NCBI GenBank assembly: GCA_944320295.1 | Contig: CALUGY010000085.1 | Location: 1 to 40,454 of the forward strand | DNA length: 40,454 nucleotides | Reading direction: 5' to 3' | Source of the DNA: an uncultured Bacteroides sp. | Lineage (GTDB): Bacteria > Bacteroidota > Bacteroidia > Bacteroidales > Bacteroidaceae | Part shown: positions 380 through 39,508 of the stretch, one piece after another | How positions within the stretch are numbered: position 1 is the stretch's first letter | How the letters are laid out: each line of letters begins with the position of its first letter | Translations under genes and position numbers: made by a program | The notes under the pieces: model-generated | The model's database searches: none | Told to the model about the DNA's origin: nothing | The model's input: the letters and a program-made list of their open reading frames with translations, nothing else

Positions 380-475
380 GGGGCGTTTGTCCCGAACGTG
401 TACGGAGCGCGGCCGCAACGTGTTCCGGCCGTACTCGCAACATGTCGCGCTTGCACCCGCAACGCGTTCCGTCCT
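380..475. repeat. 22-bp dyad array A (4 units, ACRYGT cores)
   Basis: Four ACRYGT cores start at 396, 418, 440 and 462, exactly 22 bp apart: ACGTGT, ACGTGT, ACATGT, ACGCGT. The left arm GGGCGTTTGT (381-390) matches the arm of the other arrays; no clear right arm is seen. It lies after the tyrS terminator and about 150 bp before the tRNA-Gln promoter, so it sits between two transcription units. Confidence 0.9.
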
Positions 476-601
476 CAGGCCGGAAATACCTGCCCGTTTT
501 CTGCATAAAGCCCGCGCCAAACACAAACACCATGCAGCATAAGCCGGCAAGCCGTTTTCTGCCTGTTCCTAAAGCATTTCGTTGAAAAAACAAACAAAAA
601 G

Positions 602-633
602 TTTGCGAGTATCGCGGCAATGCCCTATCTTTG
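602..633 (+). promoter_or_regulatory. Bacteroides-type promoter for tRNA-Gln
   Basis: A TTTG box at 602-605 and TATCTTTG at 626-633 are 20 bp apart. This fits the -33/-7 consensus of the Bacteroides primary sigma factor. Transcription would begin about 25 bp before the mature tRNA. Confidence 0.75.
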
Positions 634-664
634 CACCGCTTTTCAAAAGAAAGCACCCGATGTT

Positions 665-735
665 TGGACTATGGTGTAATGGTAGCACAACAGATTTTGG
701 TTCTGTTTGTCCAAGTTCGAATCTTGGTAGTCCAA
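665..735 (+). tRNA. tRNA-Gln (anticodon TTG)
   Basis: The acceptor stem is TGGACTA (665-671) with TAGTCCA (728-734), and the discriminator is A735. The anticodon stem ACAGA/TCTGT encloses the 7-nt loop TTTTGGT, which places TTG at 697-699 and reads the glutamine codon CAA. The T arm is CCAAG-TTCGAAT-CTTGG. The 3' CCA is not encoded and must be added after transcription. It is a lone tRNA with its own promoter and terminator. Confidence 0.95.
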
Positions 736-748
736 CAGGCCAGCGGGA

Positions 749-787
749 AAGCCCCAGGAGATATTCTCTTGGGGCTTCTTCTTTTTC
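749..787 (+). terminator. Intrinsic terminator of tRNA-Gln
   Basis: The stem GCCCCAGGAGA with TCTCTTGGGGC has one mismatch and a very short loop, and is followed by a T-rich run (TTCTTCTTTTTCT). It ends the tRNA-Gln transcript and abuts the 3' end of the minus-strand gene at 788. Confidence 0.75.
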
Positions 788-37675: not shown

Positions 37676-37777
37676 ATGAAAAAATCTAATGTTTCTTTTC
37701 GCAGACGAAAATCCGAAATATTTTGCGTTGCTGCAAGTATCTTGTGGAAAAATTCCTCACCACTTAACATTAATTAA
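37676..37777 (+). CDS. Possible 33-residue small protein
   Basis: An ATG at 37676 follows the AT-rich leader CCTAAACCTTAACT, a sequence style common before real Bacteroides start codons, and opens a 33-codon frame ending TAA at 37775. The peptide starts MKKSNVSFRRRKSE and is basic, with a short hydrophobic middle. It begins 16 bases after a terminator-like hairpin. I recognise no family. It may be a leader peptide or chance; the rest of this 417-bp gap up to miaB holds only promoter sequences. Confidence 0.25.
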   Translation: MKKSNVSFRRRKSEIFCVAASILWKNSSPLNIN

Positions 37778-37914
37778 TTACTTGCCTGTGTGAAAGGTAA
37801 ATAAAACTGCTGTTCAACATATTTTTGTACCTCTCGAACCATTTTTCGTTCTGCTTGCAAAGTCCGTGCCGGGCTTTTTCGTTCGTTTATGCTGCGCCAT
37901 TGGCGGCGATGCCG

Positions 37915-37922
37915 TATCTTTG
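37915..37922 (+). promoter_or_regulatory. -7 element of miaB
   Basis: TATCTTTG, an exact consensus match, lies 52 bases before the miaB start. No TTG box is found at the standard distance. Confidence 0.5.
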
Positions 37923-37974
37923 CGGTGCAAAAGGCTGTGTGCCTTGATGGTATTAACTAACAAAACAGAAACGA

Positions 37975-39348
37975 ATGATGAAAGAACAGAACGCAGGAGC
38001 GGACTTTAAATCCGCAACTGTCCCCGAGGACAAGAAACTTTTTATTGAGACCTACGGCTGCCAGATGAACGTGGCCGACAGCGAGGTGATAGCCTCCGTG
38101 ATGCAAATGGCCGGCTATGGCACGGCCGCCACGCTGGATGAGGCGGACGCCGTCTTTCTCAACACCTGCTCCGTGCGCGACAATGCCGAGCAGAAGATAC
38201 TGAACCGCCTGGACTTTTTCCGCTCGCTCAGGAAGAAACGCCCGCACCTGATAGTCGGCGTGGTGGGATGCATGGCCGAGCGCGTGAAGGACGACCTGAT
38301 AGCCAACCATGGCGTAGACCTTGTGGCCGGGCCGGACGCTTACCTCAACCTGCCGCACCTCATGGCATCGGTCGAGGCCGGGCAGAAGGCCATCGACGTG
38401 GAGCTTTCCACCACGGAGACCTACCGCGACGTGGTGCCCAAGCGCATTTGCGGCAACCGCGTGTCGGGCTTCGTGTCCATCATGCGGGGCTGTAACAACT
38501 TTTGCACCTACTGCATCGTGCCTTATACGCGGGGCCGCGAGCGCAGCCGCGATGTGGAGAGCATCTTGCGCGAGGTGCTGGACCTGGCGGAAAAAGGGTA
38601 TAAGGAAGTCACCCTGCTGGGCCAGAACGTCAATTCTTACCGCTTTGTCCGTCCGGACGGGGAGACGGTGGAATTTCCCGCCCTGCTGCGCGTCGTGGCC
38701 CGTGCCGTGCCGCAGATGCGCGTGCGCTTCACCACGTCGCATCCCAAGGACATGAGCGACGAGACGCTGCGCGTCATAGCCGAGGAGCCCAACGTGTGCC
38801 GCCACATCCACCTGCCCGTGCAGAGCGGAAGCAGCCGCATACTGAAACTCATGAACCGCAAGTACGACCGCGAGTGGTACCTGGAGCGTGTGGCGGCCAT
38901 ACGCCGCATCATCCCCGATTGCGGCCTTTCTACCGACATATTTTCCGGATTCCCCGGCGAGACGGAGGACGACCATGCCCAGTCGCTCTCGCTCATGGAG
39001 GCGTGCGCCTACGATGCGGCCTTCATGTTCAAATACAGCGAGCGTCCGGGCACTTATGCGTCCAAGCACCTGCCCGACGATGTGCCCGAAGAGGTGAAGG
39101 TGCGCCGCCTGGAAGAAATCATCGCATTGCAGAACCGCCTGTCCGCCGAGGCCAATGCCCGCTGTGTGGGCCGCACGTACGAAGTGCTGGCAGAGGGTGT
39201 GTCGAAACGCAGCAGCAGCCAGCTTTTCGGCCGCACGGAGCAAAACCGCGTGGTGGTGTTCGACCGGGGCACGCACCGCATAGGCGACCTGGTGAACGTG
39301 CGCATTACCTCTTCCAGCTCGGCCACGCTGTTGGGCGAAGAAGTCTGA
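37975..39348 (+). CDS. miaB: tRNA-2-methylthio-N6-dimethylallyladenosine synthase
   Basis: MiaB is a radical SAM methylthiotransferase that adds a methylthio group to i6A37 next to the anticodon of tRNAs reading U-initial codons. The 457-residue protein has the N-terminal UPF0004 domain with cluster cysteines 29, 65 and 99 (ETYGCQMN, NTCSVRD, GCMAER), the radical SAM motif CNNFCTYC (cysteines 173, 177 and 180), and a C-terminal TRAM domain ending in VNVRITSSSSATLLGEEV. Two ATG codons in tandem (37975 and 37978) could start it. It uses SAM made by metK. Array J follows it. Confidence 0.97.
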   Translation: MMKEQNAGADFKSATVPEDKKLFIETYGCQMNVADSEVIASVMQMAGYGTAATLDEADAVFLNTCSVRDNAEQKILNRLDFFRSLRKKRPHLIVGVVGCMAERVKDDLIANHGVDLVAGPDAYLNLPHLMASVEAGQKAIDVELSTTETYRDVVPKRICGNRVSGFVSIMRGCNNFCTYCIVPYTRGRERSRDVESILREVLDLAEKGYKEVTLLGQNVNSYRFVRPDGETVEFPALLRVVARAVPQMRVRFTTSHPKDMSDETLRVIAEEPNVCRHIHLPVQSGSSRILKLMNRKYDREWYLERVAAIRRIIPDCGLSTDIFSGFPGETEDDHAQSLSLMEACAYDAAFMFKYSERPGTYASKHLPDDVPEEVKVRRLEEIIALQNRLSAEANARCVGRTYEVLAEGVSKRSSSQLFGRTEQNRVVVFDRGTHRIGDLVNVRITSSSSATLLGEEV

Positions 39349-39390
39349 GCTTTCATCCCATCCCCCTTTCTGAAGGGTCTGTAGAGGGGG

Positions 39391-39508
39391 TATATAGGGC
39401 GTTTGTCCGCAACATGTCGCGGCCGTGCCCGCAACGTGTTGCGTCCGCGCTCCGTACATGTTGCGAGTACGGCCGCGACACGTTCGGAGCAAAACGCCCG
39501 TACGTGGC
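39391..39508. repeat. 22-bp dyad array J (4 units, ACRYGT cores)
   Basis: Cores start at 39412, 39434, 39456 and 39478: ACATGT, ACGTGT, ACATGT, ACACGT. The first spacer CGCGGCCGTGCCCGCA matches the reverse complement of the third at 14 of 16 positions. The left arm TATATAGGGCGTTTG and right arm CAAAACGCCCGTA are clear. It lies between miaB and two mutS promoters. Confidence 0.93.

Follow-up and report, generated by a model that had tools for sequence, protein, structure and literature searches.

Why do ten gaps between genes in a single stretch of Bacteroides DNA carry the same rigid arrangement of short dyads? The stretch (contig CALUGY010000085.1 of an uncultured Bacteroides sp.), called the window here, is 40,454 bp long and is part of a 2.53-Mb draft genome of 116 contigs that is 81.5% complete. 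A preliminary description had listed ten arrays in the window, each with four ACRYGT dyads at exactly 22-bp spacing. This was confirmed: each of the 40 cores in the ten 88-bp blocks fits ACRYGT, and the units are spaced by exactly 22 bp throughout. The window holds 78 ACRYGT sites (48.7 expected) and 31 ACRYGT pairs at +22, compared with 0.07 expected from 100 dinucleotide shuffles. Thirty of these pairs belong to the arrays. The isolated pair lies at 9904-9931 inside a stem-loop with A and T runs as flanks; this stem-loop is probably a terminator, and its pair was taken as chance. At roughly even odds (about 0.5), we propose that the arrays are chromosomal nucleoprotein-assembly sites, wrapped by four dimers of a putative architectural protein.

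The arrays were counted in a host sample consisting of the window and 35 further stretches (662,525 bp, 26% of the draft genome). A sequence-only model was built from the ten window arrays, and the stretches were picked on contigs with model matches, mostly longer contigs; one draft genome carries most of the statistics. The commonest distances between ACRYGT cores up to 130 bp were 22 (282 pairs), 44 (191) and 66 bp (103), and the next ones numbered 8 and 7. These data comprise a full histogram for 408 kb and the twelve commonest distances for the entire sample, in which no other spacing of the core was enriched. Chains at 22 bp consisted of four units in 85 cases, five in 2, three in 4 and two in 11. 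Thirteen of the 17 chains that are not four units long are four-unit arrays with one core altered. The remaining chains of two are the isolated window pair and L054:4399, where two cores are altered. A fixed rule resulted in 100 arrays, 87 of them perfect and 13 with one altered core. Extrapolation gives about 380 arrays per genome. The preliminary description would have been refuted by other spacings and unit numbers being equally common; almost none were found for this core, the two five-unit chains aside.

A motif-free scan for 22-bp self-similarity revealed 105 matches at lag 22; across the other lags between 14 and 32, none exceeded 7 matches. The 105 matches are 95 listed arrays, 2 family members with two altered cores (L038:2720 and L061:7903) and 8 others, which have other letters or lie too close to a stretch end to show. 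Since the scan adds just two such arrays, nearly all copies keep four cores and decayed copies are few.

Column frequencies were analyzed for 96 arrays. Within the core, the letters A, C, G and T are conserved at 96-100% around an R-Y centre, partly by construction, because arrays were selected by their core; the motif-free scan adds the two decayed arrays. Shoulders are of the CGCA/TGCG or CCGA/TCGG type, and the remaining columns range from near random up to 0.96. A second, weaker dyad, GCRYGC, lies between the units, and each unit is a quasi-palindrome. The array is bounded by outer arms, TATAT..GGSC..TTTG at the left and its mirror image at the right, which are inverted terminal repeats such as define miniature inverted-repeat transposable elements (MITEs). 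Cores and arms are mirror-like even in the oriented consensus; the orientation difference sits in the shoulders and linkers. Individually, the arrays are directional. A two-orientation mixture had a median log-odds of 21.0 versus 6.1-6.6 in eight simulated sets, and it split 99 arrays into 62 and 37. Array orientation showed a weak relation to local GC skew (rho -0.33) and none to gene strand (rho 0.05). Of the two kinds of selection that had been suggested for the arrays, selection on a degenerate binding site in DNA, with its geometry kept constant, is supported.

Placement was evaluated with gene calls from a custom script, which is not a standard annotator. Called genes are untouched by 96 of the 100 arrays; four arrays touch one, two of these by more than 5 bp. 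Among gaps of at least 116 bp, 143 are tandem and 52 of these have an array; the figures are 24 of 49 for divergent and 8 of 22 for convergent gaps, and 16 more arrays sit at stretch ends or touch called genes. By rising gap length, occupancy was 0/215 (below 116 bp), 6/61, 19/47, 25/38, 30/45 and 4/22 (at least 600 bp), and among gaps 300-600 bp long two in three carry one array. No gap carries two, while random placement in the host sample gave 11.9 such gaps, with a minimum of 4 in 2,000 trials. Arrays also avoid each other across genes. When occupancy was shuffled between gaps matched in length, all of 116 bp or more, 0 neighbours were seen within 1.5 kb versus 5.1 expected (p 0.0014), 2 versus 8.5 within 2 kb (p 0.002) and 11 versus 16.8 within 3 kb (p 0.03). 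The closest pair among all 100 arrays, stretch ends included, is 1,431 bp apart. Part of this exclusion may be due to an array lengthening its own gap.

Relatives were searched with the model under stricter filters. The host leucine--tRNA ligase scores 82-87% to its closest named records, which are Bacteroides cutis, Bacteroides metagenome-assembled genomes (MAGs), Mediterranea and Bacteroides ndongoniae; the genus was accordingly taken as Bacteroides. At E <=1e-8 the model matched three of 158 genus genomes (the host G000, G120 and G025), and at E <=1e-6 two of 61 relatives. In G120, ACRYGT, the 4x22 frame and the outer arms are kept with GACGA/CCACA shoulders, and 18 arrays were found in 400 kb, a sample in which 16 of 20 stretches were taken around matches. 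In G025, the 4x22 geometry and the outer arms are kept and the cores read ACTTGT/ACAAGT. Six G025 chains with at least two units occur in the 311,886 readable bases, and every one has exactly four; five of these six arrays come from stretches fetched for them. Because relatives keep the geometry with other letters, a search by motif only would miss their arrays. G025 also carries many 7-bp simple-repeat arrays of the ATTATGA type (e.g. L149:26 and L162:13122), and its self-similarity matches at lags 14 and 21 are mostly such repeats.

Raw lag-22 matches with other letters were present in five further Bacteroidales genomes, namely B. cutis (4), B. ndongoniae (11) and B. mediterraneensis (7), each per 200 kb, G067 (2 in 116 kb) and G070 (13 in 80 kb); some of these, e.g. 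two in L234, are not palindromic arrays. In 100 kb of E. coli no lag-22 match was found. A further nine genomes, with samples of about 40 kb apiece, had 0, 0, 0, 0, 0, 1, 0, 1 and 0 matches, so that the wider 22-bp class is not shown to be universal. Two very small contigs of a tenth genome, G051, were not used. In the Prevotella-like G070 (L234-L237), four-unit 22-bp palindromes of the form AGTACA..TGTACT make up a dense family. Four-unit 22-bp arrays of the TTTCAC..GTGAAA type were seen at L089:9422 and L229:10861 in another Bacteroidales MAG.

Base composition around the arrays is phased. In 88 host arrays with both strands pooled, GC peaks recur each 11 bp from the centre, at 5, 16, 27, 38, 49, 60, 71, 82, 93 and 104 bp. 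The phasing runs beyond the conserved letters, in register with them and unbroken across the centre. Flank power in the host was 17.6 at 11 bp, 13.7 at 11.5, 11.8 at 10.5 and 0.25 at 8. Since 10.5 and 11.5 come close to this strength, the period lies at about 11 without being sharply defined. The host flank amplitude at 11 bp was 3.71, the highest value among 1,000 rolled controls being 1.05, and G120 reached 3.68 versus a control maximum of 2.07. The phase is alike in three dialects, being 5.7 of 11 in the host (75 arrays), 5.9 in G120 (16) and 6.0 in G025 (6). Flanks phased at 11 bp are a signature of DNA wrapping and the strongest evidence that the arrays would be wrapped. Free DNA has a helical repeat of about 10.5 bp. 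A contact period of about 11.0 bp, above that of free DNA, would suit right-handed wrapping.

Under the reading that we prefer, a putative sequence-specific protein would bind as four dimers, one on each quasi-palindromic 22-bp unit. Units two helical turns apart would bring all dimers to one face of the helix. The DNA would wrap the complex and continue beyond it, over about 210 bp, guided by the alternation of GC and AT every ~11 bp. Such complexes could serve as architectural or topological nodes that insulate neighbouring transcription units or pin supercoils. One site per gap and kilobase spacing point to architectural nodes as probably the better description than operators of one regulon. 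The specificity of the protein would drift between species and the sites would follow, giving rise to dialects on a fixed geometry. A broader version is tentative. It holds that some Bacteroides may run a chromosome-wide wrapping system like positioned nucleosomes, with one four-dimer particle per gap, phased over ~210 bp, spaced apart, read by a putative fast-evolving architectural protein and written in species dialects on the 4x22 frame. If the wrapping is real, chromosomes of a gut genus would be organised at a further, so far unrecognised level that has a dedicated protein. It would likewise offer a clean example of binding sites, in their hundreds, that change letters jointly at constant geometry.

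Several results weigh against this proposal. No match at E 1e-8 was obtained in 155 of the 158 genus genomes; such scarcity is odd for an essential site, unless other dialects lie beyond the model. Array number varies widely between congeners, with 100 in 663 kb of the host and 6 in 312 kb of G025. Matched gene ends of host and G120 gave no sign of conserved array position, with few ends comparable: for 5' ends, 1 was shared, 11 were host only, 0 G120 only and 12 neither, and for 3' ends, 1 was shared, 4 host only, 2 G120 only and 7 neither. Orthologous gaps with both neighbours matched numbered four. Upstream of leucine--tRNA ligase, a lag-22 match was present at 9 of 77 loci versus 66 of 4,000 random 600-bp windows, which was not counted as position conservation because arrays are intergenic anyway. 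The pooled element is symmetric partly because arrays lie in both orientations. The flank amplitude of G025 (3.52) exceeds the 95% control (2.54) and stays below the control maximum (3.58), and its six arrays score higher at 11.5 than at 11 bp. The GTAC arrays of G070 have no significant flank phasing and are therefore not claimed as the same system. Finally, no binding protein was found among the candidates compared, the Lrp groups and HU-HIG. Recognition helices in the two Lrp groups compared are nearly constant across dialects, which speaks against Lrp as the dialect reader. Matches to HU-HIG (PF18291, ordinary HU included) do not follow array density, with 23 in the host, 11 in G025 and 2 in the array-rich G070, and HU-HIG was rejected as the array protein.

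The alternative that survives best is that of small mobile elements. Here a transposase would bind the four 22-bp repeats, target immunity would space the copies and drift of the transposase would cause the dialects. The ends of Tn7 and Mu likewise have transposase sites of 22 bp, and both elements show target immunity. The outer arms as inverted repeats, the exclusion over ~1.5 kb, the varying copy number between congeners and the lack of visibly conserved positions in G120 all fit this idea. The copying history is mixed. The preliminary description had held that the arrays are not copies of one sequence. Oriented arrays have a mean identity of 0.63 (0.61 in another comparison) with a standard deviation of 0.057 versus 0.039 in column shuffles; the mean equals that of column shuffles by construction and was not used as evidence. 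A few pairs are 0.80-0.91 identical over 116 bp, so some arrays are copies and the claim does not hold for all of them. For a comparison of flanks six similar pairs were taken, of which three had enough sequence, the closest pair (0.91) not being among these. Two of the three are 85-89% identical across the 88-bp array in unrelated flanks, which indicates that arrays are sometimes copied alone. The third pair, at L037:17343 and L037:19258, is a duplicated intergenic region with a left flank 96% identical and an array only 84% identical, in which the changes keep four ACRYGT cores.

Against mobile elements stands the lack of a target-site duplication: in 92 arrays none was detected, the best z being 3.9 over ~4,000 pairs of offsets at each length. 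Such a duplication could have decayed where the insertion is old. Although the mean identity among copies is down to 0.61-0.63, nearly all still have four cores, and the flank phasing lies outside the conserved letters in register with them. We consider mobile elements unlikely. For one array per gap together with mutual exclusion, an architectural or topological role is favoured over target immunity by about three to one.

Strong DNA gyrase sites, at which GyrA tails would wrap phased DNA, letters would follow shape and the gaps would be supercoil sinks, an idea put forward for BIME-2 in E. coli, are a rather unlikely explanation. The host element does resemble the gyrase motif in its mirror-image arms and its phasing near 11 bp, as a symmetric element with GC periodic near the helical repeat over ~130 bp. 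Gyrase reads shape, yet the core letters of the arrays are nearly fixed and differ between congeners. The array phasing is unbroken at the centre and extends ~104 bp per side versus ~65 bp for E. coli gyrase.

Still less probable is a role as operators for a global amino-acid regulator of the Lrp/AsnC type, whose octamer consists of four dimers. The imperfect inverted repeats of the arrays, two helical turns apart, have the geometry of Lrp/AsnC operators and match the octamer, and all 12 genomes that were searched have 2-3 Lrp gene matches each. In two orthologue groups, taken from genomes with different array letters (G120 not being one of these), 23 of 24 sequences retain the helix motif AAIHQR, which is contrary to what a reader of dialects would show. 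A third group of six sequences, whose helices were judged by eye, has no match in the host draft.

That the arrays work at the RNA level, whether as hairpins, as terminators or as sites of processing, is highly improbable. Folded as RNA, an individual array does better than its shuffles (z -1.4 to -7.2 across the ten window arrays), yet the folds differ, some forming one long hairpin and some two, and whole-dyad pairing lies below the row-shuffled expectation (z -4.1 after orienting the arrays). Without orienting, the depletion of palindromy was z -6.5, partly from mixed orientations. Within-array pairing is not above the column-frequency expectation, the highest of 14 pairings tested having z 0.8, and the suggested selection on structure is in this sense, as base pairing, not supported. 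An RNA or cruciform action is disfavoured by the absent covariation and the differing folds. A terminator or promoter role is disfavoured by the little preference for gap type; the occupied divergent gaps (24 of 49) argue against terminators, and orientation is unrelated to gene strand (rho 0.05). In line with the check that had been advised, Rfam at gathering score gave no family for the arrays in the window, where just tRNA and SAM-II were matched.

The arrays of the window and their neighbours are collected in the table.

Table. Positions of the arrays in the window and of features beside them
Feature	Position	Context
Array 1, four 22-bp units	388..475	precedes tRNA-Gln (665-736)
Array 2	4701..4788	flanked by two called - strand genes
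Array 3	9697..9784	flanked by two called - strand genes
Array 4	13833..13920	upstream of leucine--tRNA ligase; divergent gap by gene calls
Array 5	19624..19711	past the end of a called + gene, ahead of the SAM-II riboswitch that precedes metK
SAM-II riboswitch	19955..20014	shortly past array 5, ahead of the methionine adenosyltransferase gene
Array 6	21537..21624	downstream side of metK, between + genes
Array 7	24616..24703	between two - genes; top score among the model matches listed
Further 22-bp array	~27312..27400	other letters, GGATGTACGTCC type; same gap as array 8
Array 8	27520..27607	between + genes
Array 9	33881..33968	dihydrolipoyl dehydrogenase-like gene on one side, PBP4-like gene on the other
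Array 10, left outer arm	39390..39403	TATAT-GGSC-TTT type; other arrays have degenerate equivalents
Array 10	39404..39491	between + genes
Array 10, right outer arm	39492..39505	AAA-GSCC-ATATA type; mirror image of the left arm

Small families of 22-bp palindromic or tandem arrays were seen elsewhere in the host: two copies of the CCCACCCGGGTGG type at L031:7590 and L041:10998, two copies of the GACACTTGTGCTAAGTGTC type at L029:14677 and L055:13044, and singles at L033:11443 and L045:3649. At L043:351, L045:10169, L045:12816, L053:15710, L054:13695, L054:13784 and L056:18874, about four palindromes follow one another at 23-24 bp, and the letters differ from array to array. Convergent genes flank three of six gaps with 23-24-bp arrays, which are possibly a separate 3'-end class.

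The literature check that had been advised returned no description of four-unit 22-bp Bacteroides arrays in titles and opening lines of abstracts of open-licence papers, which is weak evidence of absence. Among described systems, excerpts on the E. coli gyrase motif report a symmetric motif of ~130 bp with a GC period of 10.75 bp in its arms, likened to nucleosomes, and BIME-2 repeats that are cleaved by gyrase, some of them binding it (PMC6379681). The arrays share the symmetric element, the periodic GC and the wrapping signature. They differ in near-fixed core letters, a period of ~11.0 instead of 10.75 bp, longer phasing and dialects. Repetitive extragenic palindromes (REP) and bacterial interspersed mosaic elements (BIME) are defined, in the sections of the source at hand, by a GTAG or CGTC tag at the palindrome end (PMC3733652). 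Like those of Enterobacteria and Pseudomonas, the arrays are intergenic palindromic sequences in many copies. In contrast, they have four contiguous 22-bp units, no pairing constraint and at most one copy per gap, and the column frequencies of 96 arrays contain no fixed GTAG or CGTC tetranucleotide.

Archaeal Lrp proteins, as far as extracts of the relevant article describe them, bind imperfect inverted repeats of 13-17 bp two or three helical turns apart and form octamers with outward DNA-binding domains and wrapped DNA, one of which induces a positive supercoil (PMC2995911). Inverted repeats two turns apart, four dimers and wrapping would thus be common to such Lrp/AsnC regions and the arrays. 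The extrapolated ~380 sites per genome and the indifference of the compared Lrp helices to dialect set the arrays apart. BrickBuilt MITEs of Porphyromonas gingivalis have, in the available part of their description, a 23-nt internal repeat, 19 copies and IS-like terminal repeats, and of the four copies that are intact three show target duplications (PMC4596501). They too are Bacteroidales repeat elements with an internal tandem repeat; unlike them, the arrays have 22-bp units, four per array, ~380 copies and no target duplication detected. DNA uptake sequences of Neisseriaceae are single short words that occur genome-wide and have dialects. The arrays resemble uptake sequences as a short genome-wide motif with dialects and are distinguished by their fixed four-unit form.

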